Assembly (NCBI GenBank): GCA_029891345.1 | Contig: CM056993.1 | Coordinates: forward strand, 273,018,900-273,082,899 | DNA: 64,000 bases | Direction of reading: 5' to 3' | Source of the DNA: Dryococelus australis | Taxonomy: Eukaryota > Arthropoda > Insecta > Phasmatodea > Phasmatidae | Shown here: piece after piece, positions 3,068 through 64,000 of the stretch | Layout of the letters: every line of letters starts with the position of its first letter | Numbering within the stretch: position 1 is the first letter of the stretch | The notes under the pieces: generated by a model | The model's input: the letters and a program-made list of their open reading frames with translations, nothing else | Database searches by the model: none | What the model was told of the DNA's origin: nothing | Made by a program: the position numbers and the translations under genes

Positions 3068-4690
3068 GTTGTTTTAGTAATTGCCCTCGAGGCCCCTGAA
3101 CTACTTCAAGATGTAATATCTGTAACCATATGTTGGCTTTGTGTAGTCTTTACTAATCAACATACTTATATATTGATTTGATTGTCATGTAACCTATATT
3201 AATGGAATATCTTTAAGGATATCTTATTTTATTACCAGGTGGTCGAAGGTAATACAACATAATATATAAAGTAAATATAATAATACAAATATATATATAT
3301 AAAACCATGGCAAAAAATATATATATAACCATGGCCAAAGTTAACATTTGCATCAATGCTTACATATTTATGAATTACTCATCCAGATAAATATAAAGGT
3401 ATCATTATTTATTTATTTATTTATAATTTATCAAATAAATTGTCTGATTTCATGATTGTATGAAATCTTGGTGAATTAAGTATATCATACACTTATTTGA
3501 AAAAATGAAATAAGTTTTACTTATTTCCAAACCCCCCACACACAGCAATCTTGATCCCACCTTCTTTATAACGAAAGCACATGTTGATGCTGGAGTTCAC
3601 TTCACGAGGCTAACACATAACACTATGACGAATATACTACTCTGACTAACTTGAATATATTCTCGTTGTATTAAAACTAGGTTAGAGGACGTGTATAAAC
3701 AACTCAAAGCTTCGAATTCGGACCCTCCCGAGTGTGGGTATAGTATATTCCAAATGCGGCAACTCATTTTTTTTTATGTTTAGAACCGATTCGGTATCAA
3801 AATGGCTCAGAACGCTCCACGATCAGGTGGCCCCTCCGCATTCAACTTTTTGGACATGATCATGCGACACGAAACTCTTCATTACAAGGTACAAATAATG
3901 TCTTTAATTTTCCGGAAGAAATAATCAATTACGATGAGTTAACCTCCAACTTTTTCTCGAGTTACAAGTATCTATTTTATGAACTGTTACTGCACATTCA
4001 TTTTATGAGCACTTACTAAACGCTAATAAGTTCACTCATGAATATAATTTATCATGGTAACTCTGTCTGAAGCAGGTTTTTGGTGGCAATTACTTAAAAA
4101 CGATCTTGTCCTGAACTATCTGGCATTCCCGAGGCACAAGTTACATCATATCTCTATACACAAGGTTAATTTGCAGTCTATACTTCTGTGGGTCTTCAAC
4201 CGTGACATTAACATTTTATTAGTGAAAAGGTTGGGACAGAGTTTATTGCAGTAGTATTTTCAAATGTCATGTGTATTTAATTGCTGAGATATTTCCATAT
4301 ACAGGAGTTAGGAAACAAAGCCAACTTTAACGGTCTACAAAAAAAAAGTTGTTTACAACCCATGATCTGTCTTGGAAGCTGCATTCTTAATCTTTCTGAG
4401 GTATTCGTTTTTTACTTCTAGGAGAAAATATTTCTATTACGTCGAGCGATTTCTTATACAAATCTTGAATTTCAGATATGCTGCAGCGTAGTTAGCATGC
4501 CAGACCGTTGACCACAGTAATTATCCCACTATAGTGCAAAAGGAATAGCCCGCTGGTAGGGTGATGATAAAGGGGGGAGGGGTTGTAACCTCACTATGCT
4601 CCTAATGTCAAAACAGGTGGTGCAAAAACAGGTGGTCCAACAAACCAGTATTAGGTTATTAATAAGCCTATAATAATTATGCAAATTTGT
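3068..4690. other. AT-rich, nothing recognised
   Basis: Contains a short TA run near 3288-3330 and small direct repeats (cattatttatttatt near 3402, and aacaggtggt twice near 4612-4635). I see no convincing gene or element ends. Confidence 0.5.
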
Positions 4691-4693
4691 AAA

Positions 4694-5096
4694 GGTTGTT
4701 CACGGTAAACTGAGCACTTTTGAAAGTCCTGCTTAAGATCTACTTGTATGTGCTTTGTGAATTATTCTACCATACGTAAAATTAACACTGTCATGGGCCT
4801 TATCACTTTATTCATGCGTCGGTCAAGTGTAATTGTAAAATTATTTCAAAATTATTATTTTTTAATTTATTAGTTAATTTTTTACTTGCGTACATTTAAA
4901 ATACAGAACCAAATAAGTAATTTCAGTATTCCCAAATGTTTACCTAACGCTATTTATTCAATGCGAAAATATAGAACTATTTTCCCTTCCGTCGTTAGCA
5001 ACTTTACTGTGCGCATTAGACTTTGTGTATCCCTAGGGATTTATGCAGTTAGAGACAGTGACATTTTTAAAATTGCTCAATTAATCGTGTACAGCT
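4694..5096 (+). mobile_element. MITE, GGCTGTTCAC family, long form
   Basis: The left end reads ggttgttcacggtaaactg followed by agcacttttgaaagtcctg. The right end, near 5070-5096, is a decayed inverse (gtgtacagctt). Its inside, from tgcttaagatctacttgtat onward, matches other long copies at 14.4, 48.1, 50.5, 51.5 and 62.1 kb. No coding sequence, so a non-autonomous element. Confidence 0.75.
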
Positions 5097-14340: not shown

Positions 14341-14437
14341 TGTGACAAGGAGCTCTTCAGTGCGTTTGACGAAGGGAAGCGAGGGAGCCATAACGGCTAC
14401 ACGTGACACGCGCGACTGGTGCCACTTCACTGCTATA

Positions 14438-14836
14438 GGCTGTTCACGGTAATATGGCCACTTTTGAAAGCCCTGCTAAAGATCTATTTTTATGCAAGTT
14501 GTGTATTCTTGCGCCTTATGTAAAATTAACATTGCCATGTGCATCCGTCAGAAAAGAGAAACTATGAAATTATTTCAGAAATAAACATTTTATATATCTG
14601 ATAATTTACACACTGGTGCATTAAAAAAACAAGAAAGCGAAATAAATAATTTAAATTATCACATATGGTTACTTTTTATTGGACGTTAAAATATGGAACT
14701 ACTTTCCATCAATATTTACCAACTTTACCGGGCGCATGTCACTCAGTGCGCCCGTTGAAGTAGGCCTATATGCAGGCAGGACGTGGCATTTTCCTAAGGT
14801 TGATTTCAAAAGTGCTCACTTTACCGTGAACAGCCT
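14438..14836 (+). mobile_element. MITE, GGCTGTTCAC family, long form
   Basis: Starts ggctgttcacggtaatatgg and ends ctcactttaccgtgaacagc. Internal blocks tgctaaagatct and ttactttttattggacgtta are shared with the 48.1-kb and 51.5-kb copies. Confidence 0.85.
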
Positions 14837-14839
14837 TTA

Positions 14840-17835
14840 CACGCAATGCGCTGAACTTGCGTGCACTGTTTCCGTCGGGCTTCATCTACCTAAGCTGGAA
14901 AGTCTGCAGTTAAGTTAAGGGTGGGATGGACCCCCGCTTTTTTTGTGAACTACTTGTTTGCGCGAATACGCAATTACATACTGTCAGAAAAGACAAAAAA
15001 CCATTATCTTTTCACTTTTTTTTTGTCATATTATTCTTGAAGAAAAAATTCGTGAAAATGGTCAAATATTGCATTTTGAAATCTAGCCTATGCAGTTTCC
15101 TAAGCGGCAAGAGAATAGTACAAAGATACGGGCGTAGATTTATCTGTTGTCTCTCATCGCGTGTGATAAAACCCCATTGTTACAGATCTAATTTGCACAG
15201 TACAGCTTTACGGCGGAAACACTGCACGCCTTGCGCGTAGGAAGAATGAGACACTAGGCGTGCGTGTAAGTGTCGCCCGTATCGCTTCCTCGCTTCTTGA
15301 CCTTAGCCGCGGCGTTCCCACAGGGGTCTATCCCGCTCTTAAGTTCAGGTCCCTATAATAGTTTCTAGTGCATATGGCCAGTATATTATGAGAGATAAAA
15401 TTGCGGAAAAAGGCCAATTTTAGATATGTTGGAGCACAAGTTGATAAAAAAAAAATAAAATAAAAAATAAAAAATAAAAAAAAAAAACGGAATTCAAACA
15501 CACTGCAACGCAATTCATGCTACATATAGGTAGAGGCGAAATGTCTTATTATTTCAAATATTACCTTACTGCCGGCATCTGGGGTGTAGTGATCTTTATA
15601 TTTGTTGCATAGATCATATTTGCAAAACGAATTATCACAACATATAATTTGCACTGCGCTTTACTCGCACTAGTTCGGCCGAACCTCACAACACGAGAAC
15701 CGAATGAAGACTGTTCTTCATGAATGAAATGATACTGTAATGGCGCCACATCAGCCAGGGGGTTTTTAATTTACATGCATTGCACAGAAAGGAGCAACTG
15801 ACCACTAAATGTTTCTTCAAATGAAGCATGTTTTTTTTTATGTAAGACAACATTTTTTGTTAGTGTTAGAAATGTGGCGTTTAAGTTGTGAATAAGTTGT
15901 TTTGGAAATGTCCCATATAAAGTGCATTTAAAGTAAAAAAAAATAAACACCTTTATCCCAGTTCCAATTTTGCCACCAAAATATCTCATAAAATAGGACT
16001 AATCCCACGACCTGGTAACGCACCAGCTGGTACGAGTTTCAGCATTCCGTAACACTGAAGTGTTTCTCACTACATTCACGTTAACTTCCAACTTTTCTAT
16101 AGCTCTGCTTAAGTTATACTTCCAGGTGTAATAATATTTTCCATGATATCTATTTCTAACTTGCCATTACACATATCTACGGACATTTTTACGAAAATGC
16201 ACAGTAAATAAACGGAAACGCAATACGTAATGACGAAAAATGGAGTTAACTGCATATATACAAACTACGGAAAATCTCCGTATTTCCTATAACTTCGGGT
16301 TTCGGGCACGAACAATGCTGAGTACACACGAAACTTTCTTCACCACTGCAACCAGAACATTATCGTTTCTGCGGCAGTTAAGGTTATCCATGTCACTACG
16401 ACATGTTCTTTAAAACATTAAAAATTAGCTACATGCGTACGTAACACTTAGCAACACTTAAAATACACCAACTTTAACACAGACAACAAAGTTGCATATG
16501 TGACTAATAGAAATTCAAAAGTTACACCAGATTCTCCACGTGAGCAATTGTAGGTAACTGGTTAGGGTCGTGAACTTGCAAGTTTTTTTGACTCGGGTTC
16601 AAATCTTGCTTAAGTATAAAAATCTTAACTTTCTTAAATATATTTTTATACACAGTAAAACACCCAAATAATGAAAATTAAAATAAAACAGATAATAAAA
16701 ATTATTTAAATTCGAAGTACAGAAAACTTCTAGGGAATTAACGGAAGTTTCTGCGAAATTAATGAAAATCCGTTTTTTTAAAATCAATGTGTCAGGAATT
16801 TTACGGAGAGTATACGGACACCTCTACATTAATTTTTACCAGCACTTTTCCCTAAAATTAAGGACATTTTTAAACAGTGTACAACACACCTATCTTTTCC
16901 TTGTTTTATGACACATTAATTACGAATAAAATACTATAATTGTTATCAGTTGCGTGTGGTGAAGTGTTGCAAGGTAAGCTGATGCTTGCTCAGTGCTGTA
17001 CCCACTCGGCGCACACAGCAGGAACCAGTAACCAGAGCGGAGCCGGGAGAAACTGAACGTATTGCGACCACCCACGAGAGAGTTTCGAGGCAGGCGTCCA
17101 TTACACATGTGATGTGAGGTCAACTGCACCACTGCGTTTAAGTGGCCGGTGTGTAAACTAGCAAATGTTTAGGTATAGCACAGAGCAAAACACCACACAG
17201 TTCACCACACGACACTGATATATAGATAAACTATAAGTAATAGCAACGAAGTCATCAATAGCTACACTGCTGTAAGTGACCCATCCGAAGAAGTCGTTGG
17301 CAATGGCCGCACCATGCTCGAAGAAGTTGATGGCAGTTCTGCTGTATGTAATGTTGCTGGACTCGCAACATTTGTCAAAATAATATTTTATAACTGCCTC
17401 ATCCACATGTGACCGCAACTGCTTTAATAGTACCCATATGGAGCTTTATGGCGTCGAGTTGACATTAACCCAATGATATTACACCAATAAAACATTTTGC
17501 GGACATCGACCAGCCCATCACGGAATTGTCGCGTGATTGCAGCTGGCCAATCACGCGCAGGCACTGAGACATCACATGCAGGAGTCAGATACTATTGCAG
17601 GAAAATTTTAGAGAAAAAAGGGAATGTTTGAGGGGAAAAGGGCGACCCGAATGACAGAGTATGAACAGCTCCGATGCTCCGCGCTCCCACGCTCTTGTCC
17701 CCAACTCGACATAATCCTACTACTGGCAGAACTTGTGTTTTATAATCTTAGGTAGGAAACATTGAGTAGTTTACAGGAGAAAAAAAAACACTGTTTGTAA
17801 ATTAATTCGTACGTGATTTATTTTTTATTTCCTTC
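14840..17835. other. mostly unassigned, with remnants of repeats
   Basis: Holds a partial TAGTCCATTC-family remnant at about 16072-16185 (gttaacttccaacttttcta, aataatattttccatg), a 40-bp GTGTCGCCC box at about 15265-15300, and a tRNA-like ggttcaaatct near 16595. A GC-richer stretch lies at 16960-17150. No gene recognised. Confidence 0.4.
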
Positions 17836-19591: not shown

Positions 19592-20980
<1,389 letters not shown>

Positions 20981-22377: not shown

Positions 22378-22689
22378 GTTAAGTCAGCATCTGCTGAGGT
22401 CACTTCTTGTGCATATGCATGCATGTGCATGGCATTAGCACTAGTGAGACTTAGACGTTTACTTCGACAGCAGACATCCACTACAACAACAGGCATCCAC
22501 ACCGAGAATAACACCAGATGCCTACAACAAAACCAATGACAGACATGTACTATATCTCTAGACTTCTACAACAATGGCAGGCCTCCCCACCGAAAACTAC
22601 ACCAATCGTCTACAACGTCTACTACAACTTCAATACATCAACTAGATGTACAAAGGATTTCATCTCTGTATCAGCTCGCAACAGGTACA

Positions 22690-23060
22690 ATGCATCAAGG
22701 TCACTTCTGTGACAATTGTGATTCTGAATGCGTTGAAGTATTCAATGCGATTTTATCATATAGGAAGTCGAAAATGTTATTGAGTTTAGACTCCTCCCAA
22801 TTGCGAGTGCTGCCGAAAGATTTTATAATTTTTTTTGCGGGCCACAAAACAAAAATAGTGTATCTGTTCCTTGATGAACAGATGTGAAGACTGCCCTGTC
22901 TATCTATGTTAATGATGGGAACTTGCAACATATGTGGAGGGATTGTATGTCGCAAAGACTGGAACAGCTACTTGAATGTGGAGTTATTCCAGATGCAGTA
23001 ATGGACTATTCAGGAGTGGATGAAGTAGATTCCGAGGCGAGCACTGTGATCTTATAAATT
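22690..23060 (+). pseudogene. unidentified fossil coding segment of the Polinton-like element
   Basis: Coding-like sequence (for example FCDNCDSECVEVFNAIL, and an acidic tail VMDYSGVDEVDSEAS). Not recognised. It is broken. It sits between the promoter at 22343 and the QGF-type fossil. Confidence 0.4.
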
Positions 23061-23106
23061 AACTGAGAGAGACTTTTTTACATAGTGTATAAAGAAATAA
23101 AGTAAA

Positions 23107-23590
23107 AATGATGTGCTACGTGCAAGGTTTCGAAAACTATCAAGATGACTCCTTTGTAATTAAGGAGCTCGCTATTTCTTATTCAACTGATGCTAATGAC
23201 TCTAAAGTGTTATGCTTTAAACCTCCCATACCTTGGTAAAGTTTAAAACCTGAAGTTAAAATGATGTTTCGAGAACAGACTTATGAGATACATAACCTGA
23301 AATGAGACTCTGATGACATAGCATATGGAAAACATTTTCATTGTGTAAATTATGGGCTACTCGATGACTATCCCATATATGTGCTTGGAAAAATGCATAA
23401 GGAAATTATAAAAAGTTTAACCAAATGCAGAAGTGATAAATATCAGAAGATATCAGGACTGTTCAAGTATAAATTCCATTCTCAAATGTTATAATACTAA
23501 TCACTGTGTGGAAAAAACATTCTGTTCACAATGTAAAAGCGAAGCTCTAAGAGAATATTTGTTCCAACATCCTTCTTACGTGTTAATATA
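23107..23590 (+). pseudogene. QGF...KELAI family fossil, possible exonuclease-like fold
   Basis: An opening QGF then VIKELAI, a central FKPPIPW, then IHNLK, then YPIYVLGKMHKEII, and a late Cys/His-rich piece (NHCVEKTFCSQCKSEAL). This order resembles a repetitive insect protein family I have seen with QGF-KELAI-KPP-iyvkG-K blocks; I recall no proven function. The spacing hints at a degenerate DEDD-type exonuclease, which is speculative. It is broken in several places and is part of the Polinton-like fossil. Confidence 0.5.
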
Positions 23591-24172
23591 TTGATTTTCG
23601 AAAAATGGTTTGTTACAGAGTCATACCTGCATAAGATTTAGGAAAATGGAAAAATTCAACCCAGAGAAGACATACTCCAGTATTTTTCGAGGATACAAGA
23701 AAGTATGGTTCCAGTCTCTAGACAACATATACTTCCAAACACAGATGTGCAATGGAGATGAACATTGGAATTTTGCAAATAGTTTCGGAGAAAACATGTA
23801 TAAAGAATAAGTGTTGTGTTATGACAAAGAAGACTGTTTGATTTTTAATATATGGCCTTACAGCAAACTGCCCTGTTATTCTTGGGACATGTGTTTTAAA
23901 AACAGAAGTGTAGAATTAACCAAAGAACCAGGTTTTCATCAAATAAAATGTAAATTGAGTACAGAATGTTACGACAGCCTCACCTTAAGGTCTGAAACAT
24001 GTAATAATAAGGAACACATCATGCAAATGCAAGGTAATAGTGGACTTCTAAGAGCACCATGTAGAATGTGGGACTGTGAGGTTTGGAACAGCAATGTTTG
24101 TGTCTGTAAATTTGATTTAGCCAAGTTGTCGTTGAAGAACTATTTTTATCACAAACTGGAAGAACATCTGAC

Positions 24173-24180
24173 TATATAAC
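24173..24180 (+). promoter_or_regulatory. TATA box before the second tandem copy
   Basis: tatataac lies about 40 bp before the start of the second unit. No clear TCAGT is present at the expected distance. Confidence 0.4.
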
Positions 24181-24696
24181 GAGAGAGAATGATACACCAG
24201 AGCATAAATTATGATGGAGAGATTCGTCTCATCACTACCTTATGTCAGTGTTACTCCAGGGTACAGGCGAGTGTGGTTTCGAATTGAAGATGAGGATAGT
24301 TCACTACAGATTCAGATGTGCAAAGGAGATGAACATTGATGTTTCTCGTTAATCAGTCTAACAGAAACCTTTAAAGTTTTCGACGTATGTTATGGGCGAA
24401 ATTCTTGTCCTGTATATAATTTACGTCCTGACTGCCTTGTAATGAAGAGCAACCAGAATTTGTAGCTCGAAGTGAATACATCACGGAATGCAAGTCCTAT
24501 AAGAAAATCAAGTACATCATGCAGAATGAGTGTTGTTGCTGTTCTCTTACTACAGTTTGGATAGAACTGTGCAACAACAAACAACACTTTACATACATTA
24601 GTGACCAAGAATTAACTTTTCCCTGTGGAATGTGGAATTGTAAAGTTTGGCTTAGCAAGAACAGTTAAAAATGAGAAAAATTGGTGTTACAGCAGC

Positions 24697-24733
24697 TATA
24701 TAAAGGACAGCGTGCAATATTTAATTGTCAGTC
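24697..24733 (+). promoter_or_regulatory. TATA plus TCAGT promoter of the third tandem copy
   Basis: TATATAAAGG at 24697-24706 lies 33 bp before the A of TCAGTC at 24728-24733, and the ATG of the third unit follows at once (24734). The layout matches 22343-22377 and implies a very short leader. Confidence 0.65.
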
Positions 24734-25204
24734 ATGGCTAAAATATTTGGCTCTACAGATGTAAACGAGGTTCTGCAAGTAGAATACAGGAGAGTGTTCT
24801 TTAAACCACACGACAGTAGATTAAAAGTTCATATCTGCAACAATATAGAACACTGGTGCTACACTTTCGACAACAGTCTCGGAATTTGGGTTTTGTGAAG
24901 GAATAGCATGCAATGATTGTGCTGTGAGATATCTTCGCCCCAACTGTGACCTACCAACAACATTAGAAGATTTGATGATTGCTTGCTTAGTGAGGAGTTA
25001 GAAGAGGTGCGAGTAAATGGAGTAATCGCCTACCAACTCACCAGACCTCACCTGGGAATCATCGTTCGCTGGAAGGAGACCTGCGACAGGGACACCCACA
25101 ACATTTTTCGAACATGGAGAATTAGTTTTTCCCATCCATGTGTAATTTATATGCATGTGAATTGGCTTGTGCAGTATAATGTTCCCAATGAAATGCATGT
25201 ATGA

Positions 25205-25795
25205 GTTTTCTACTAAAGCTTTGTATTCTGTAACTTATAGTTTATTATATTCACATTATGTTGTTAACAAAATATGTGAGTTAGACAATCATTTCAAATA
25301 TATCTATTTCTCTCAATCTTTGACACCACGTAGTGAACAAACTAGTTATGATTCCACTTTAACTAACTGCAACAGTTCTGAATGGCTTGTAAACCAGTAC
25401 AGACTGCACAGAGTAGATCGTAAGCGCAAGGTTAAGGTCGAATGCATTATAATGTCATATTGTAAGGAAGAAAAATATTTGAAACATCTTGTTTATAATA
25501 CTGTCACTGTATCAGTATTTCGAATAATATTATAATAATCTTCATACTTTATATCATTATAGCAAAAACAAGTTTGGTTACACATCTCATACTGGGTGTG
25601 ATTAATCAAAATATTATGTGCATATAGCAATAAAATTATCAAAAATTAAATTTAGCCCTAAAACACATTTCAACTTGCAAATTTTGAGAAGAAATGAATT
25701 TATCAATATACATACATTGTTCCTTCCTAAATATTCTCAGTTGAGTGTTGGATCTCATAGTAGTAACATGATGCATTTTCATCCTGCAAGTCATT
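25205..25795. other. unassigned part of the fossil element
   Basis: AT-rich. An open stretch across 25167-25535 shows no recognisable motif. Confidence 0.3.
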
Positions 25796-25797
25796 AC

Positions 25798-26088
25798 TAG
25801 GGGCACACGAATTATACGAAAACATTTCATGACCTGTTGTATTTCAAAACACTTTTGCTCAGATCACTTTTGTGATTGGGTTTTCTAGTTGTTATGTATG
25901 TTAAATGTCTGTCCCCGAATCAGAGACGTACAGTAACGGGGTAACTTAATTATTATTGGCCAGTCAACTAAGAAATTGTTTCTCACAGACACACACTGCC
26001 AATAAGCAAAAGGAAACTGCTGGCATGCTTGTAGGGTATTGAAATTTAGCATGAGCAGAAATATTTTCGCGATATTCATGTATCCCTA
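25798..26088 (+). mobile_element. hAT-type MITE inserted in the Polinton-like fossil
   Basis: Starts taggggcacacgaattatac and ends ttcatgtatccctA. Flanking octamers gtcattac (25790-25797) and atcattgc (26089-26096) agree at 6 of 8. Contains gaatcagagacgtacagt, as in the 12.9-kb copy. It arrived after the host element. Confidence 0.75.
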
Positions 26089-26099
26089 ATCATTGCATC

Positions 26100-27580
26100 A
26101 GTGTCAAACAAGTAAATTCGAATATAACTTAAACCCTTTGATGTAACAGCCTTTTTCCCGAATTTACAGAGATTTTGATTGAATTTTTTCATTTTAAAGT
26201 AATTTATTTCCTCTAGGAGATGAAAAGAGCCACGAACTCATTCAATGCAGTGCCAACAAGAAATTTGCTGTGTTTTATATGACTGCAACCACACCTATTT
26301 CATCTTGTATTGAAGATATACACTCACATTATGTTGAATAATTTCATAACTTCGTTGAAAGCTTTGCTTTACATGCCCCTGCTTGTAAAGACATTTGTGT
26401 ACAAACAGACTGGTTAAAACCAGGTCATTAGAAATGCTCCCTCCTTGAAAGCAGAGTTTAAGAAGGGGATCTGGAACCAATATAAAAAGAATGTATGAAA
26501 ACTTTGTTCACAGAAGTTGCTAAGAGTTTATAAAAATATTTGTTTTTAAAGAAAAATGTTGTATATATTTTGAATTAACTTGTCTTGATAGTGTTCAATG
26601 TCTTGTGTTACCTTGTAGTTGTTTTGAAGGAAGGTATACTTGATAGTACTGTACATACATTTTTGGATCTACCTGTATTTTTGAAATAATTGGGTAATTT
26701 GTATGTTTTCCAAAGAAAAATATTATCTCGAGAGAGAGAGTATGAGAGAAAGGTAATTAAATTGTCTCAACATAGAGAGCGATTCTTAAATTTTCTAAAA
26801 GTATGTTGCATTAACACAAAATAGTGGTGTATAGAAAAAAATCAGAGGAAAAATAAATCAGATAACAAACAAACTATTAGTTCACCAAAATAGTTTGAAA
26901 CTAAAGATATATTTGAGCTTTCCTCCTGACAAAAAGATGTATGCTGAAAAACCTGAGTAATAATATTTTACATATCACTATAAATACATAAAATAAGTTG
27001 TTAAATTTTGCCAGCCTCCGTAGAGTAATCAGTTTACACAAGGAGGCTCTGGTTCTAATACCGGATAAGGCATGATTGATAATACTTAGTTTTTGAGTTC
27101 GAGTCCCGGCTGGGTCATGTATGATGCAATATAGTGCCTGAATTGGAATCTCGGCTAGGTAATGTTTGATAATAGTTAGTTTATAATCATAAAAGTAATA
27201 ATGGATGAATCACGTAATTCAAATGTATACGATAGCTTGATAATCGTTTGTACATGAGAGGATGTAAACATAGTAGTAAATTCAGGTTACAAACACCTCG
27301 TATTGGGAAAAGTTCGAATTGCAATTACAATTGTTCATGTTCAAAATTTTTAAATAAGGACATAATTAAAATCTAATGGCTTAAAACCAGGCAAATAAAT
27401 CTAGTCTATGTTGAATTGTAACATATACACACTTAATCTAAAAAATTGCATTAAATCATTTTGAATATGTTAAGTTAGCTTAAAAATAGTTTTAAATGTT
27501 TCAAATACATAATATGTAAATTTAATACATTTTTAGAGCGAATGATGAAATATCAATTTTTCCGACAAGGGAGAGAGGTG
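26100..27580. other. AT-rich, no gene seen
   Basis: Includes two short tRNA-like fragments near 27010-27150 (ggttctaataccgg, gttcgagtcccggctggg), likely SINE or tRNA debris. Nothing else recognised. Confidence 0.4.
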
Positions 27581-27583
27581 GGC

Positions 27584-27978
27584 TATAAATAGGACCCCGC
27601 CCACCCCCACCTCGTAATTTGCTGCTTTCACTTCATGAGGTCAACACTTCCTACCATCTCGCGCTCGGACACCCTATGAACCAACCCGGATTCTAGGAAC
27701 TGCAGGCCTAACCGTGATTATTCAAGGACACCAGTTGCCCATCCAATAGCCACTACCTCTGCTGGGACCTGACAAGACGAGGTTTTGTGGTGAAGAAACC
27801 CCTCACTTCTGACCTTCAGCTTTGTTTCCAATTCACCACTAGCTTGGGAATTCGCCGGCTTGCTGGAGCAGACACACCGGATTTTCGCCTGCCTTCCTGA
27901 GTGGGCTAGCGCTCAACCAGACTGACATTGGGTTTACGTCTCGTTCGAAGTCTACCAGCTACTAGAGTTAAAGTAAGT
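27584..27978 (+). promoter_or_regulatory. TATA promoter with exon-like stretch and splice donor
   Basis: TATAAATAG at 27584-27592 in a GC-rich context is followed by about 370 bp of markedly GC-richer, non-coding sequence and ends at a strong donor AAAGTAAGT (GTAAGT at 27973-27978). Then AT-rich intron-like sequence begins abruptly. It could be a 5' leader exon of a long transcript running toward the polymerase at 30.4 kb. Confidence 0.45.
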
Positions 27979-28139
27979 GGATAATAAAAAAAAAATCGGG
28001 CTTTTTTATTCTTTTGCGGTATTTTGTGAAAACTTTTCGTAAAATTTATTAAAAATTATTTTATTTTGACCGTGTTTTCTGAAATATTTTAGTAACTTTC
28101 TTATCATTTTTATAGTGTTTATATGATTTAATTAAACTT

Positions 28140-28445
28140 TTAGCAAATCGTTACAACTATTAACAAACTTTATTAAATTTTAGAAACTTTTAAACAAGTT
28201 TTTAGAATTTGAATGAATTTTGTTAAACTTTTATTAAATTGTTACATATATTAATGATTCGTTTACAACTTGAATAAACTATTCTGTAAATCGTTAAATA
28301 TTTTAAACAAATATTTAGAATTTGAATGAATTTAGTTAAACTTTTAGTAAATTGTTAAACATTTTAATGAATCATTTGCAACTTGAATGAACTTTTCTAA
28401 AAATAGTCAAAACTTTTTAACAAGTCTTTAGAATATGAATGAAAA
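28140..28445. repeat. 113-bp tandem repeat
   Basis: tttagaatttgaatgaattt recurs at 28201 and 28314 and, worn, at 28427, exactly 113 bp apart. Companion blocks acttttagtaaattgttaaa and caacttgaatgaacttt keep the same period. A partial unit precedes it. Confidence 0.8.
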
Positions 28446-28644
28446 ATACATACAATTTATTCTGAGTGTGATATATTTTTTTAGAAATTTTTAAAGTGTA
28501 ATTAGCTTGTTTGTAAGTGTTAATTATTGATAAGGCGAAAGGGTGCTTGAGGTGACGTGGCCCCTCCTCGCTGTGTAATTTGTTTGTTATTGTTGGTAAT
28601 GATTATATATATATGTGTGTGTTTTTTTATATGTGTGTGAGTGT

Positions 28645-29148
28645 GTGCACGGGAAAAGTATTTTCAATGAATTTAAGGTGGGTTGTTGACGTGTATTTGA
28701 GAGGAAATTTAATAGAGTTTTGAAGGAGATACTGAATGACTGCCATTATATCGCACTATGGGCAGCAGGCCGAGACAATATCTCTAATTCAAGCCTTCTC
28801 TACACTGTTACATATTTCTAAATATATGTTAATACCATCTAGAATAAAATATAAAGTATTCTGAGAAAAATTAGTAAGTGGATGACTGCTAGTGTGAGTG
28901 CAGGGGAAGTGTGTTTTCAATCAATTTTAGGTGGGTTGTTGATGCGTATTTGAGAGGAAATTTAATAGAGTTTTGAAGGAGATACTGAATGACTGCTATA
29001 GTATCACTCTATGGAATAGCAGACCGAGACAATATCTGGAATTCAGGCCTTTTCTACACTGTTAAACACTTGTACATAAATGTTAATACCATCTAGAATA
29101 AAATACACAGTACTCTGAGAAATATTAGCATGTGGATGACTGCTAGTG

Positions 29149-29150
<2 letters not shown>
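28645..29150. repeat. tandem duplication, unit about 253 bp
   Basis: The block gtgggttgttgacgtgtatt ... gaggaaatttaatagagttt ... ccatctagaataaaata ... gtggatgactgctagtgtg occurs twice in direct order, with roughly nine in ten bases alike by eye. It ends in a GA microsatellite. Confidence 0.9.

Positions 29151-29152
<2 letters not shown>

Positions 29153-29226
<74 letters not shown>
29153..29226. repeat. GA microsatellite
   Basis: About 74 bp of GA repeats with one interruption. Confidence 0.95.
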
Positions 29227-29228
<2 letters not shown>

Positions 29229-29229
29229 G

Positions 29230-30425
29230 TAGATTTCAAATAAAATATAAGTAAATTTTATTTTTAAAATGTTTAGTTTTAAGAGTGTTTGTTTAGTTAC
29301 TTTAATTAAGATCTATTGTGTTACTCCCTCGTTAAAATGTTTGGATGAAAATCTTAATTCGACAAAGTAAATAATTTTCATAGTGTACCCTAGAATGTAT
29401 TTTGACAGTGTAAAGTATTCTTAGTGTAAAATTCATAATTTTTTTTGGTGTAAACGATTTTAATGTTGTATACTACTTTCAATGTGCGATATTCAATGTT
29501 TTCAAGAAAGGGGATTTAAGTTGGAAAGTTTTTAAACTGAGATTAAACTGCAATAGTTTAAATTTCAATATTCCAAAAGCAGTCAGCTTGCTTTAAAATT
29601 TAAAACTTGTGAAAAAACAGGCGAGGCAAGGCAGGTCCCAGGCTACGGTGATTTGTAGTGTGTACAGAGCTGTGGGGATGGCAATTCACGCCGCAGAGAG
29701 AAGTTGTTGGATAGGCAGGTCAGAGGGGAAGTGCCCAGTCTCCCTCCCGCTGGCATGCAGGCGCACCCATAGGATTTATGCACCCCCAGGCTCTGCATGA
29801 TAGCAATGGGAATGGGAGTTTGTCAGGCGGGGCGGGAAAGGGGAGTGTCCTGAATGGTGGCACACGGTGTGGACAGCAACAGTTTACTGAACCGTTTTCT
29901 CCTTCATGCTGCCAAACTCCCAGCCCGCACTGTCTTTTACGCTGCTCCAGCTATTCGCCAATCACCCTCATCAGATCTTGAGACCTTCGTTTCGCTCGCT
30001 CCCCATGCACTCAATTCTTGGCTATCCCCACCTGGCTTTGTACACGAGGTTTTAGAATGACTCATCACCATATCTTTAGTAATAAAACACTTCGTTGTAG
30101 TCGACTGTCTTTCCCAAATAAACCCACAGTTCCTTAAATAAAATTATATTACACAATACAGTTTTTATGTTACTATTAATTTCAACTATGATGTGATGAG
30201 AGAATAAATTGGTCTTATTTCTCTATGTTTTCAGAATGACAAGGCACTCAATTTGCATACCAAATGATGAAATGAGTAATACAACTACCATCAACCAACA
30301 TGTTCCATATGCTTGTAGCATTTTGTTAGTCTGTTCATACTATCCAAGTTTATCTAACTATTTTGAGTGAGTGGGTGCTGATTGTATGTACCAATTAGTT
30401 GATAAATTAGTTGAACTTACAAAGT
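29230..30425. other. spacer before the polymerase fossil
   Basis: AT-rich until 29600, then a GC-richer patch (29600-30060) with short overlapping open frames and no recognised family. Confidence 0.35.
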
Positions 30426-30429
30426 GGGT

Positions 30430-32620
30430 AACAGGAATCTACAGCATAATTGTTCCGATGAAGCCAAAACCCCTGCTGATGAAGCTAGGTTGGCGACTCA
30501 AACATGTTGTCACATTTGCAAAGAAATCCTCGGCACAGATTATATTGTGATCGATCATGTCCATCTGACTGGCGAAATCAGAGGTTGCGCAAATAATATG
30601 TGCAACTTAAATTTCAGACTACCTAAAAGATAATGTGTCTCTCTTTTTATAACGTACAGAATTATGATGCTCACGTTCTTATAAATCTCTTGGCTGAACA
30701 GCACATACGACAACCCGTCGGAACCATGTTAATCGAAAACCATTGTAAAATTCACGTGATTGTAATTACCCTTGAAAAATACAAAATATTGGGAAACAAA
30801 TTCTTAATGGAATTGTATTTAATGGAAATTCCAATTCACGAGCGCCTCTCTGGAAACTTTGGCAGTTAATTTATTACCTGCCCAATTGAGTATCACCCGC
30901 TCGATGTTTCCAGACAACACCCAATTCGAATTGGCAAAACAGATGGGAGTTTTTTTTTAAGACTTTGTTAAGTCGCCAGACAGTCTGATGTGCAAATCAC
31001 TCCCACCAAAGGATGGATTTCAAAATGTGCGGTGATGATTACACTCACACCCAAGCCACCTGGGATGTGTTCAACTGCATAAACTTGCTGCAGTATTCCA
31101 TTCACTGCTTATGTGTTGACACTTGTTTGCTGGCTGATGTTTTTGAGAATTTCAAGACTGTATGTTTGGCTCATTATTTTCTTGACCCCGCCATGTACAT
31201 CACAGCTCCGTATATTTCATGGGACGCTTTATTGTCAATGACAAATACGCGGCTAGAGCTGTTGACTGATCCTGACATGTATCTTTTTGTAGAACATGGG
31301 TTTGGTGCAGCATTATCCAGGTTTCAAAGGAATTACAGAAGCCCCATTATTACGTGGATGAGGACTATGACCCCAGTATGGCATCGAAATATATATATGT
31401 TATTTCGACATCAACAGGCTGTATAGTCATACGATGCAATCCCAGCTTCTGATTGGCAATTTTGAGTGGATTGAGGCTGACATGTTTTCAACATGGGTTT
31501 TTCAAACACGCTGAATGATGGTGACACTTGTTTTTTCATTGTAGATGATCTGTCTTTTCCGGAGGATTGTCATAATACACTATCTGACCTGCCTCTAGCC
31601 CCAGAAAATGGTGTACACCCGAACTGCTCGCATGAGAAACATCTTTTAACACTCATGCCGTGAAAGAAATATGTTATACACAGGGAAACTCTGAGGTAGT
31701 ACTTGATGTATGGAGCCACACTTGACTCTGTTCATCGCGTTTTGCACTTTGAACAGAAGGCTTGGATGGCTCTGTAGATCGAGTTTTACTTTAATAAACG
31801 TGCCCAGGCTGCGAACGCATTCGAAAAATCGGTTTTCTAATTAATAAATAATTTGGTTTATGGAAAAACATGAATGTCTGCCAGGAAAGGTATGTAAGAA
31901 TCCTTTCGAGGTACGACACCATCTACAGGGATGCAGAGCTGACAGGACGTCCAACATTCCAGGCAAGGCAGATTATTGTTGAAAACTTGGCTCTTTTCGA
32001 GATGTCAAAAGAGTAAGTTGCATTCAACAAACCTTTGTACACTGGTATTGTCAGTCTTGATCCATCAAAATTAACCCTCTGCGAGTTCCATTATTAGTAC
32101 ATGCGTACAAAATTTCTTCCACCAGCCCTACACTTCCACTATTGTGATACCGATTCCTTGGTATATTCTGTCGCTTGTGTGGACATCTATAAAGTAATTA
32201 CCCAAGATTTAAAGGCGCGGTTTGAGACATCTAACTATGTGCTCGATAACCCGCAAGGATTTCCTCATGAAAACATAGGCCATACCGAGGTGAAGAAAGA
32301 TGAATGTGTTGGGTGCATCATCACACAATTTGTGGGTTTACATCCCAAGCTTTATGCATATGTTGTTGAGAATGAACAATGTATACATGAGGCAAAGGGT
32401 GTAAAACCTAATGTGTTACAGTCACTCAGGTACAAGGATTAACGAGAATGCCTCGAAAATTGCAGAAGGGTTTTGGGGACCCATTATCAGTTCCATTCAC
32501 GTACTCATCAAGTCTATACCAATCACGTAACCAAGGTAGTGTTGTAAGGTATGAATGACAGGTAGTACATTGAGGCAGATGGAATATCAACCTTACCTTG
32601 GGGGCACTACAGAATACCAA
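30430..32620 (+). pseudogene. protein-primed type-B DNA polymerase fossil (Polinton-like)
   Basis: Parts in order: a zinc/HNH-like block CHICKEILG ... DHVHLTGEIRG ... CNLNFRLP (30500-30630) typical of pPolB; FYNVQNYDAH; the exonuclease-to-palm linker VDTCLLADVFENFKTVC ... LDPAMYITAP ... WDALL ... LELLTD (31110-31290); a LPLAPE block near 31590; the palm motif YCDTDS with its two aspartates near 32135-32150; and a KAKGVK-type block (EAKGVKPNVL) near 32390. The strand and order match Polinton polymerases. The fossil covers most of the family length, is broken, and shows several breaks by eye. It replicates linear DNA from a protein primer in living relatives. Confidence 0.85.
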
Positions 32621-34221: not shown

Positions 34222-35054
34222 TAAAAGTGAATTATTTTTACAATAGCGAAACTGTCGTTAAAAAATATCATTTCGTTTTCAGTTGTAGGATGAATACAGA
34301 GTTTTTCTCTTAAATTTTAACTCAGCCACGTTCGACATATATAATCGCTCTCGACATAAGCTCGCTTCAGCCTCCGAGGCGGACCGATGTGTTAAAAAAT
34401 ACTTAAGGTATGTGTACAAATTAGAGGGAGACATACTGTACTGTGTCTGTGTAAAATTCAAAATGCTAGTTTGGAAATTTTTATTTGTCCATGCTAACTG
34501 GAAGTGCTAAATCGTTGTCTGTGTGTTTCGCTGTTTAAATTGCACATCGTTAATGCTACGTTGGTAGCGATACCTTTTTATTTCTAGATATAATTCAGGA
34601 TATGTATGAGTAGTGTGTAAATACTTTAGTCAGTGGTATTCAGAGTTTTTCTTGTAAATTCCAACTCAGTTGCCTATCAGCCTCCAACCACGCTCCATGT
34701 ATGTAGTCAGGCTCTCAACTTAAGCTCGCTTCATTCTTTCACCAGCCACCAAAGCAAACATATGTGTTTTGGGGGAGCTCCATGTGCGATTTCATTATGT
34801 GTTTAGTCATTTTTGTGTACTTGTGATCATTAGCTGTTTTGAATTTTCATTAAAAATTCCGAATTTTTCACATGAGTTATAATCAAACGTTGGGTATGTT
34901 TTCTCTCAACACAGTCTATTAGTTGACGTAAGTCCTATATCCAAGTCTTTCAAATTTGCCTATCTACCACCACCATCTACAGCAATATCACAACCAAACA
35001 AAAAAATACACTTAGGGCACTCTTGTAAAAAATTTACCACACACACACATATAT

Positions 35055-47849: not shown

Positions 47850-48850
47850 TATTGAATTACTTGGCTAAATATATGTCCATGTTTGACAGTTCGAATATTT
47901 ACAATAAAGACCGTATCACACATTCATACAGTCCCACCATAAATTGGTTCACATGTTACTAGTCCGGAATGTTCTAGAGTGCTCCGAGTAGTCATCTACT
48001 TGTCGGGTAACACGGCCTCTCGTCTGTCCGCACCGCACAGACACCCGTCTGCCGTCGTCTCGCAACCTCCTTCAGCGTCCTTCCACTCCGCTGATGTCCC
48101 GCGCTACAGCTGACTTCGCCTATAACCGCACTTCAGCCAGACGGTTATAGGCCGTTCACGGTAAAATTGGCACTTTTGAAAACCCTGCTTAGGATCTACT
48201 TGTATGTACGTTGTGTATACTTCCACCTAATGTAAAATTAACATTGACATGGACCTCGTCACTTTATTTATGCGTCGGTCAAGTGAAACTGTGAAATTAT
48301 TAGAAATACCAATATATTGAAATCGGTTCGTTTTTACACTTAGGTGCTTAAACAAAACCAGAAAGCAAAATAAATGGTTTAACTTATCACAAATGTTTAC
48401 CTAAAGCTTTTTATTTGATGTTGAGGTATGGAACTACTTTCCATCCATCGTTACCAACTTAACTGGGCGCATGCCACTCAGTGCACCTGTTAAAACATAT
48501 GCATGTTGTGGGAGTGACTATTTTCTAAGGTCGATTTCAAAAGTGCACACTTTATCGTGAACAGCGTTTACCACAAAGACTGTCGAGCCTGCAGTTGCGG
48601 TGGTGTTTATAGTTTCGTCCACCATGGTCCACAAACTTCTGCAAATGCCTCGTTGCGGCGAGGGACATGATTAACAGAAAATTCTTGCTCATTCTCCCAA
48701 GTCATCGACTTGTCCGGCAGAGGGGAGAAACTGTAACGTCATCCTGGTCGGCTGTCAATCATTCCCCCGCCCGCAGGACAACTCATCTGTGAGCGGGTAT
48801 GCCTTGTGTAGGGGGAGTGGAGGGTTGAGATGAGTCACCCCCACAGCAGC
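47850..48850 (+). repeat. CpG-rich dispersed repeat, copy B, with nested MITE
   Basis: Aligns by eye with 35560-36180, including ggaatgttctagagtgctcc and gctgtcaatcattccccc. It is interrupted by a MITE at 48150-48566. Confidence 0.55.
48150..48566 (+). mobile_element. MITE, GGCTGTTCAC family, long form, nested
   Basis: Starts ggccgttcacggtaaaattg and ends cactttatcgtgaacagc. It lies inside the CpG-rich repeat, splitting its alignment to copy A. Confidence 0.85.
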
Positions 48851-49901: not shown

Positions 49902-50475
49902 TCCAATAGAGAAGCAAAGTGTCTTTCCAGGTGCTTTTTTAACATTTTACAATGCTTATATAAATAAACTGCATACAATTTTTGGAGCAAGTTTGAGCTC
50001 TTGAAGATGGATGGAAATTTAACCATCCTTCCCTCCTACATTAATGTTAAGATGTCAGGTCGATACCTTTCACCCAATCAGTCATCCGTCAGTAATATCA
50101 AAACACTGATTTCATTTGGATCAACCTCAGCATAATTTAATTTTCTAACAGTTAGCAGACATCATCATTAAGACACCTGTCAGGAATCTTTAATTAAAAA
50201 AAACCAGCGGATACAAATTACCGTAAAGATATCGATATCTTCTTTCCAGACTAGTGTCAGCATCACAAATTTAATTCTGGGTCGATCTCAGCCCGAAGCG
50301 TTTTCCCGGACGCTGTCTTCACGCTTCTGTCCGCTGGTCCGGTCCGATATATTTCTTCACTCCAAATCTTGATCGGCGACAGTGCTCTCAACACGCTGAG
50401 ATATTCTTGCTTAAGACGGTAGCCTGCCTGGCGCTATAACTGCGTTGAAGAGTGTTTCAAATACACGTTTTTAAA

Positions 50476-50896
50476 GGCTGTTCACGATACAGTGATATAA
50501 TTAGATATAAACCTTAGAAAAAAAAGTCACTGCCACTGCATGCATATATTTTAATGGGCGCATTGAGTGACATGCGCCCTGTAAAGTTGGTAATGATGGA
50601 GGAAAAGTAGTTCCATGTCTTAACGTCGAATGAAAAGTGTTAGGTTACAATTTATGATAGCTTAAATTATTTCTTTCGCTTGCGGTTTTTTTACAATGTA
50701 TGGAAGTGAAAAAATGAGCAGAAATTTAAAATATTTACTTTTCCATTAATTTCACAGTTTTACTTGACCGACGCATCAATAAAGTGGTGAGGCCCATCGA
50801 ACGTAAACTTTACATATCGTGGAAGTGTACACAATGTGTATACAAGTAGATCTTAAGTGGAACGTTCAAAAAATCTTAGTTTACCGTGAACAGCCT
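50476..50896 (-). mobile_element. MITE, GGCTGTTCAC family, long form
   Basis: Reverse orientation. Ends ggctgttcacgatacagtga and agtttaccgtgaacagcc. Internal gggcgcattgagtgacatgc is the inverse of the block in the 14.4-kb copy. Confidence 0.85.
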
Positions 50897-50902
50897 ATAA
50901 CA

Positions 50903-51454: not shown

Positions 51455-51769
51455 TGTTCGTCACTTTATTCATGTGTCGGTCAAGTGAAAGTGTGTAATT
51501 ATTACAGAAATAAATATTTTTGAAAATCTGTTCACTTTTACAATTGGATAGATTAAAATAAAACTAGCGAAATAAATATATTAAGTTATCAGAGATGGTT
51601 ACGTGACACTTTTTATTCGACGTTAAGATATGGAACTACTTTCCATTGATCGTTACCAACTTTACTGGGCGCATGTCACTCAGGATGTTTGTTAAAATAT
51701 ATGCAAGCAGGGGCAGTGACTTTTTTAAAGGTTGATGTTCAAAAATGCTCACTTTATCGTGAACAGCCT
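51455..51769 (+). mobile_element. MITE, GGCTGTTCAC family, long form, left end missing
   Basis: Internal cgtcactttattcatgtgtc and right end ctcactttatcgtgaacagc match the long form. The first 100 bp are absent. Confidence 0.75.
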
Positions 51770-51849
51770 TTAACGTGTTTTCAGATACGGCAGTTCTGAA
51801 AAAGCCGTTTTCAGCGATGTCGGGGCCCCTAAAATAATATTTATAGCAG

Positions 51850-62140: not shown

Positions 62141-62146
62141 CGTATA

Positions 62147-62566
62147 GGCTATGTTCACGGTAAACTGAGCACTTTTTAAAGCCCTGCTTAAGATCTAGTT
62201 GTACGCACATTGTGTATTCTTTCGCGCTATGTAAAATTAACACTATCATAGAGCTCATCACTTTATTTATGCTTCGGTGAAGTAAAACTGTGAAATTATT
62301 AGAAAAATAAATATTTTACAAATCAGCTAGTTTTTACTCTTACATGAATTAAGATAACCGAAAATGATATAAATAATTTTAGTTATCACAAATGGTTACC
62401 TAAAACTTTTAACTCTACATTAAGACATTGAACTACTTTCCCTCCTTCGTTACCAACTTGACTAGAAGCGTGTCACTCAATACGCCCGTTAAAACACATG
62501 CAGGTAGGAGTAGTAACTTTTTCCTAAGGTTGATTTAAAAAGTGCTCACTTTATCGTGAACAGCCT
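62147..62566 (+). mobile_element. MITE, GGCTGTTCAC family, long form
   Basis: Starts ggctatgttcacggtaaact and ends ctcactttatcgtgaacagc. Internally alike to 48150-48566. Confidence 0.85.
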
Positions 62567-62569
62567 TAA

Positions 62570-64000
62570 ACAAGTTTAAGTCTAGCCTGTGCAGAAATTT
62601 TTCCGTGAAGAACAGGTGGCCCTAATGATGCAATTTTGCTAGCGTGTGCCGTGGTAGAAGGAGCTAAAGGGACTTCTTGTCACCAATGTCACATATTTCT
62701 GGTCAAGATAAAAATCCGTAGGGCCTATGCATTGCTCAGTATTGCTACGAGACGAAGTGGATATAGAGGTAGTATTTTCTATTCATGACAGCTGAATGCT
62801 GTCCGTAAGCCCCTACGCCAATACGTCGGATAACAGCTGTTTCTAGTTGCTTATATTGTGTGTTGGCTGTTGAAGTATATAAGATATAGTGTTACATTGA
62901 AGTATGTAAATTGGGATATTATATGAAGGTAAAACATAATTTGGTTACTTCAATTTTGATGGCAAGAGTAATCCTGATTATGTACACATCGATTAACTAA
63001 ATAAGTTTGTAGTTGTCATAAAACTGTTAAGGTTTTTTTTTTCTGCAACAAGAAAGTAATATGGTGATTTCATTTATATTCCGTATACACATAGGGTTGT
63101 TTGGTTTCTCAAATTTGTATTCAGCAGCGTGCCGTTGTTTATAAATTTGGTGACCTAAAAGTTTTAGTGAGTTTTATGGGGTGCTATTTTTACTCTCTAT
63201 CGCTCAGGTGTTGGTTTATGACGCTCGAAAGAACGTCAGGGTAATCATATATTTTTAAGGAATAAAGAGCACTCCAATTCCAGGTTCAAAGACCGTGAAT
63301 TAAAGCGGAAAGGCGTGGCCTACTAGCAAAAGAGCATCGAATTAGTTAGAAGGGCATTTTCACTCTCAAGTCAAATTTTATCATGTTTATATATAACTAA
63401 TCTAAAAAAATATCAATGTAAAAACTATGTCGCTCTGTAATATTACGAATAAATCCATCAGTAGTATATTCGGAGGAAGGCCTATTCAGTCGTATTTGTT
63501 GAGCAGAGAACCGACATTGGCTGATGTTGTTTCAAGGCTTTCCCTGAAGATGGTAGCTGGAGTATGTCTGAACACGTGATATGGATGATGCAAAAAATAC
63601 CTACCAATTAGATTTTATTGCCATGCGATCCTTAAATGTGGATCGACGGGAATACATCTGCAGTAAGTAATAACTGTGTGATATCTACAGTACGACAATG
63701 TGTGAGTTTTCCCAGACCTCCCAAGAGGATGTCGTGTTTGGAATATGATACATGTGGAGTGGATAATGTAACCTGTACTTGATACTGTATATGTTTATTA
63801 ACTTGGGCACTGATTCCAAGACACGGGAGCATTTGCAGAATAATGAGATCTAGGACACATGTTACCACTTCATAATTAAAAGACTCCATAACTAGACGTA
63901 ACCCATTCTTTTATACACAAACATAATCCATAATTACAGCCGGTTTTCAATTTGTCATGCACAAACACTCATGGGGGAACGAATGCAAGGGACTTAAACA
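62570..64000. other. no feature recognised
   Basis: AT-rich to the window end. No gene, RNA or element ends seen. Confidence 0.4.

Follow-up and report, generated by a model that had tools for sequence, protein, structure and literature searches.

A tandem array of three paralogous gene units with a repeated cysteine/histidine signature in a decayed Polinton/adintovirus-like element of Dryococelus australis

A row of similar cysteine/histidine motifs at 23646..25200 of the window (the whole 64-kb stretch of Dryococelus australis DNA analyzed, 64,000 nucleotides; all positions refer to it) raises the question of whether a real gene family lies there, what kind of element carries it and what its products may have done. 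A sequence-only reading had described the locus as three tandem paralogues of an orphan gene, each an internal duplication. In keeping with that reading, six C-[N/D/K]-x3-H motifs, counted with the pattern C[NDK]xxxH, occur at regularly spaced + strand sites between 23748 and 25082 and form three units of two halves, a and b (Table 1), the motif of half b standing 252, 251 and 246 nt after that of half a in units 1, 2 and 3, respectively. Over the six frames of the window the pattern matched 18 times, 12 of these matches being scattered outside the array. In a three-frame reading of 23646-25178, an ATG opens each unit, at positions that fit the limits first proposed, and is followed by a VWF or VFF stretch and then by C-[N/K]-x3-H; a second motif, C-[N/D]-x3-H, stands about 250 nt downstream of the first. 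A tryptophan directly follows the first motif in units 1 and 3; in unit 2 of the window a stop takes the place of the residue after the first histidine, and the tryptophan is found there in two of the other genomic copies described below (L006 and L007). The VWF strand and the W after the histidine, which had been ascribed to the motif in general, proved to be features of the first halves and are absent as such from the second ones. Every unit of the window copy is broken by stops or frame changes.

Table 1. Positions in the window of the array units, of the other parts of the element and of a dispersed repeat.
Feature	Position	Strand	Observations
Unit 1	23646..24179	+	C-x4-H at 23748 (half a) and at 24000 (half b, followed by C-x4-C); an in-frame stop breaks the unit
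Unit 2	24211..24668	+	C-x4-H at 24319 (half a) and at 24570 (half b); broken by one stop and one change of frame
Unit 3	24734..25178	+	C-x4-H at 24836 (half a, followed by C-x2-C) and at 25082 (half b, followed by C-x4-C in a different frame); broken by changes of frame
Left terminal inverted repeat	20113..20979		internal (TA)n run; blastn against the right arm
Right terminal inverted repeat	34222..34947		blastn
Broken gene A (no named family), upstream of the array	22540..23054	+	frames; piece 22878-23054 also matched in L008
Broken gene B, adjoining the array upstream, no named family	23093..23591	+	matched in L002 and L004-L008, 44-89% amino acid identity by piece
Broken family-B DNA polymerase-like gene	30415..32439	+	endonuclease VII-like region (PF02945, E 2.2e-5) and YCDTDS motif
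Dispersed repeat copies	4686-5016, 14434-14840, 48146-48571, 50470-50899, 51458-51772, 62143-62570	both	315-430 bp per copy

The relationships among the halves were estimated by pairwise alignment against shuffled sequences. The pairs 1a-2a, 1a-3a, 2a-3a and 1b-2b each beat all 2000 shuffles, and these comparisons strongly support the three units as paralogues, as had been proposed. The internal duplication of each unit fared less evenly. Within units, the score was reached by 6/2000 shuffles for 1a-1b, 26/2000 for 2a-2b and 1840/2000 for 3a-3b; across units, a and b halves gave 0/2000 (2b-3a), 28/2000 (1b-3a), 85/2000 (1a-2b), 126/2000 (1b-2a), 611/2000 (2a-3b) and 698/2000 (1a-3b). Half 3b was also poorly matched by the other b halves (74/2000 with 2b and 324/2000 with 1b), and its high shuffle counts throughout mean that the broken 3b of the window carries little signal alone. 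Profiles of each half were then run on pieces of the other half with 8000 shuffles in each direction, 7500 and 7889 of which obtained a score. The b-half profile on eight a pieces was equalled by 2, 2, 2, 9, 38, 79, 436 and 1865 of 8000 shuffles, and the a-half profile on ten b pieces by 4, 14, 15, 15, 73, 89, 114, 146, 496 and 595; in the latter series the three 1b pieces and the window 2b gave 4-15, the other three 2b pieces 73-114 and the 3b pieces 146-595. A comparison of the half-a and half-b alignments with hhalign, both alignments being small, returned a probability of 5% (E 0.0074). Since the half profiles recognize each other only moderately and the hhalign probability is that low, an internal duplication within each unit is considered probable, not proven, and weakest for unit 3.

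The signature is longer than first noted, with a second cysteine pair downstream of every C-x4-H. This pair reads LC-x5-C in 1a, PC-x4-C in 1b, VC-x5-C in 2a, PC-x4-C in 2b, AC-x2-C in 3a and C-x4-C in 3b; the 3b pair is shifted to a different frame in the window but stays in one frame in L008. By manual count, the half-module pattern is C-x4-H-x12..18-C-x2..5-C, the spacer of the window half 1a including a stop. At the eight loci compared (the window and seven others), the cysteine of C-x4-H was kept in 37/41 cells and the histidine in 38/41, or 31/35 and 32/35 without the window, in a tally limited to these residues, which leans to conservation because the protein matches behind its columns all had at least 50% identity. 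The two cysteines of the second pair were mostly kept, less cleanly: 3/5 and 7/7 in 1a, 6/7 and 7/7 in 2a, 7/8 and 6/8 in 3a, and 7/8 and 5/7 in 2b. The C-x4-H and C-x2-5-C of each half could hold one metal ion; judged from this pattern, the chances that the module is metal-binding seem evenly balanced. No metal-binding family matched the array module, and an attempt to fold two window pieces with AlphaFold2 gave a mean pLDDT of 32.

The same block recurs elsewhere in the genome. When a 56-aa piece of unit 3 was searched against the 3,415,067,245 bases (3.4 Gb) of the 646 contigs, at least 150 places matched, including the window; these were the 150 that were scored, out of 3,587 first-look candidates. 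The 149 scored places beyond the window had 66-79% identity and E values of at most 1.8e-18. As all the scored candidates were strong, the element family may run into thousands of members, even if just 150 of the 3,587 candidates were scored. A 158-aa open frame was present in seven of the matches listed, six of them having no stop within the match. Of the seven other loci compared with the window (L002-L008), six (L002 and L004-L008) keep the order B-1a-1b-2a-2b-3a-3b, some of gene B, of 1a and of 2b going unmatched in L008. L003 retains just the last part of 2b, together with unit 3 and the sequence that follows. The array is thus conserved in other copies of the element, and the outcome named beforehand as counting against the sequence-only reading, a lack of conservation in every other copy, did not occur. 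As those six copies share the triplication, it goes far back in the history of the element and is not a recent local amplification at the window locus. All copies read are interrupted somewhere, but at L008:1540-1944 both halves of unit 3 lie within one natural frame of 135 aa that has no interruption. Pairwise identity over the array was 83-88% among the six copies and 81-82% to the window copy. Because the outer terminal repeats of the window copy differ by just 3.6%, the divergence between copies probably arose largely in the source lineage and not after insertion, an inference to be weighed against the alternative that gene conversion between the repeats could have kept their divergence low. 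The window copy of the element is dead; the block was nevertheless once a working part of the element, since it recurs in other copies.

Coding constraint was assessed on a DNA alignment that was not protein-guided, by permutation of columns, and leaving out L003, which has only the 3' part of the array. For the three units jointly, in six copies, divergence was 0.141, 0.117 and 0.170 at codon positions 1, 2 and 3, and the excess at position 3 was reached in 5/4000 permutations without the window copy and in 0/4000 with it. Taken by unit without the window, the counts were 74/4000 for unit 1, 313/4000 for unit 2 and 46/4000 for unit 3; the excess was not significant in unit 2 alone or in gene B alone (1088/4000). 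With the window they were 173/4000, 20/4000 and 39/4000 for units 1, 2 and 3, and 137/4000 for gene B. With L003 included, the counts in 2000 permutations were 40 (unit 1), 660 (unit 2), 10 (unit 3), 208 (gene B) and 218 (stretch D, 25161-25532, behind the array). A codon comparison guided by protein matches, and biased for that reason, pointed in the same direction. Stretch D was considered as a fourth gene and rejected: it displayed no significant excess at position 3 (420/4000 and 551/4000), and its divergence of 0.31-0.34 is about twice that of the array, part of which may be misalignment. The array is most likely a protein-coding block that was under purifying selection in the source lineage of the element, and there is little doubt about its anatomy and its past coding role.

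Concerning the carrier, the array lies within a 14.8-kb element with terminal inverted repeats of about 0.7-0.9 kb and polymerase-B-like fragments, so that its placement in a virus-like element was borne out. By blastn, the two arms are 96.4% identical over the outer 581 bp and 85% over the inner 122 bp. Genes A and B run in the same direction as the array, and a piece of gene B (QGFENYQD.SFVIKELAIS...) is 89% identical in L004. In a scan of 145 frames of at least 41 aa, the endonuclease VII-like match was above its Pfam cut-off, and YCDTDS, in the same broken gene, is presumably the metal-binding motif of family-B polymerases. No Pfam polymerase matched the broken pieces of this gene, one piece of the polymerase region had no match in PDB, and the gene B and PolB pieces had none in IMG/VR. 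The other frames of the element gave only weak single matches in Pfam (Ly-6_related, 5.9e-4, in the endonuclease VII frame and below cut-off; Pam16, 0.0019; and weaker ones), the best match in PHROGs being a weak one of 0.0098. Neither integrase, capsid, penton, protease nor packaging ATPase was matched among the 145 frames, an absence that is weak in a decayed copy, where decay could hide integrase or capsid genes. Polinton/Maverick elements produce a target-site duplication of 5-6 bp. None was seen by eye at the flanks of this one copy (20100-20113 and 34947-34960), despite its outer repeats being 96% identical, which is why we describe the element as Polinton/adintovirus-like without assigning it to that group. 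Between the array and the polymerase fragments, some 5 kb (25535-30400) hold no recognized gene; tandem duplications occur there at 28174-28399 (period 113) and 28641-29150 (period about 253), together with a (GA)n run.

The family to which the array belongs has no name in the libraries searched. Fourteen array pieces, run against Pfam, PHROGs and NCBIfam at E up to 10, matched no family by more than one member, and the weak single-member matches had E values of 0.033 or worse. A PDB sequence search with one frame and two alignments gave nothing below E 0.2. The virus search proposed with the sequence-only reading was run against IMG/VR and returned no relative of the array pieces; its sole match (L009) was rejected as a nine-residue chance match within a 596-aa phage-type gene, read as a terminase. 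The term orphan is valid for Pfam, PHROGs, NCBIfam, PDB and IMG/VR. Among the titles and abstract openings listed for insect Polinton/Maverick elements, adintoviruses, bidnaviruses and endogenous viral elements, none names such an array, which is no proof of absence.

Among known systems, insect Polinton/Maverick elements and adintoviruses are alike in being linear, of similar size, with a PolB-like gene and terminal inverted repeats; one report describes three adintovirus contigs associated with Drosophila, a complete one and two that are nearly so, with lengths of 13.3-14.6 kb (PMC8363768). In contrast to them, the window copy has no recognized integrase, capsid, protease or packaging ATPase (145 frames of a decayed copy, so that the difference is weak) and no target-site duplication was seen at it, while it carries an unmatched three-gene array. 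Bidnaviruses and related PolB viruses likewise combine PolB with inverted repeats, which are said to derive from polintons (PMC4061559); unlike them, the window element has no recognized parvovirus-type helicase or capsid, and it is one 14.8-kb element as opposed to small segments. The same source describes an NS3-like accessory protein, of scattered occurrence in arthropod DNA viruses, for which a zinc-finger motif has been proposed (PMC4061559). Its likeness to the array products is one of kind, by description and not by sequence, and section 7 of that source mentions neither a tandem triplication nor a two-module build.

Taking all this together, we tentatively favor the interpretation that the array encoded small, intracellular, probably zinc-stabilized double-module proteins, accessory genes of the Polinton/adintovirus-like element. 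The array would long have been an accessory part of a virus-like element with inverted repeats and a putative PolB gene. Its three tandem paralogues, which have diverged and are each opened by a separate ATG, would each give a small protein of roughly 150-180 aa in which one module occurs twice. Within a module, the predicted order is a first strand (VWF in the a halves), a second one that ends in C-N-x3-H, a third strand and then C-x2-5-C. An intracellular location and one zinc ion per module are suggested by starts without a signal-peptide-like stretch, read by eye, and by the cysteine/histidine pattern present in all six halves. Small size, the lack of a signal-like start, two repeated modules and three diverged paralogues would fit intracellular, zinc-stabilized binding proteins, most likely protein- or nucleic-acid-binding accessory factors for the element, and the paralogues may have been specialized for different partners, perhaps each for its own host or nucleic-acid partner. 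That the array genes interacted with the host, we infer. A host-directed or regulatory role is preferred to a virion role with considerable reserve.

The main rival, which we regard as unlikely, is precisely that the three proteins were virion components, minor capsid or packaging proteins repeated for related positions of the particle. The presence of the three units in six of the seven other copies, as would be expected of a core and not of an optional gene, and the lack of a recognized capsid gene elsewhere in the window element speak for it; nothing in Pfam or PDB matched, however, and small, cysteine-rich, two-module products are unlike the virion proteins of adintoviruses, which are double jelly-roll and penton proteins. 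Less likely still, the products could have been disulfide-bonded extracellular proteins, for instance decoys for host factors. Such proteins would account for the many cysteines (including a CCCC run in half 2b of the window copy) and for the small repeated modules, but no hydrophobic signal stretch comes after the starts MEKF, MMERF and MAKIF, as read by eye, and the histidine kept in all six halves is not needed by disulfides.

There is a slim probability that the module is a divergent form of an animal domain already known, one that was taken over from the host and then amplified. The candidate considered was Methyltransf_FA (PF12248), whose consensus also has an ACNDAH-like stretch; the likeness would lie in V-x-x-C-N-D-x-x-H and in the strand order. 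Against it, PF12248 was matched by none of the 14 array pieces in a search at E up to 10, in which the HMMER filters drop most matches above about 0.1. Finally, a cysteine-rich stretch that only seems repetitive by chance might be suspected in a copy so badly broken, in a window with 18 such short motifs, yet the regular spacing, the shuffle scores, the synteny in other copies and the genome-wide matches are at odds with it; the own-genome matches and the synteny refute it, and its probability is negligible.

A further reading, which we hold to be doubtful, would make the array the signature block of a lineage, so far undescribed, of virus-like elements with PolB and inverted repeats that multiplied to hundreds or thousands of copies in one very large genome, and the module a new small metal-binding fold that arose through one intragenic and two gene duplications. 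If the copy number is real genome-wide, the element represents a sizeable, possibly unclassified share of the host repeats. Polinton-like and adintovirus-like elements hold many genes without an assigned role, and a two-module family that is present in triplicate and persists in divergent copies of one abundant element is a clear target among them; for structure prediction, the copies in the genome itself provide natural depth of sequence. Such a block suggests a function needed by the element in three versions.

As to the surroundings in the window, a dispersed repeat of 315-430 bp is present in six copies in both orientations, with 74-80% identity (Table 1). ARAGORN found no tRNA in the 64-kb window. 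A 164-aa open frame at 1909-2403 matches Pfam DUF7869 with an E value of 3.2e-6, just above the cut-off.
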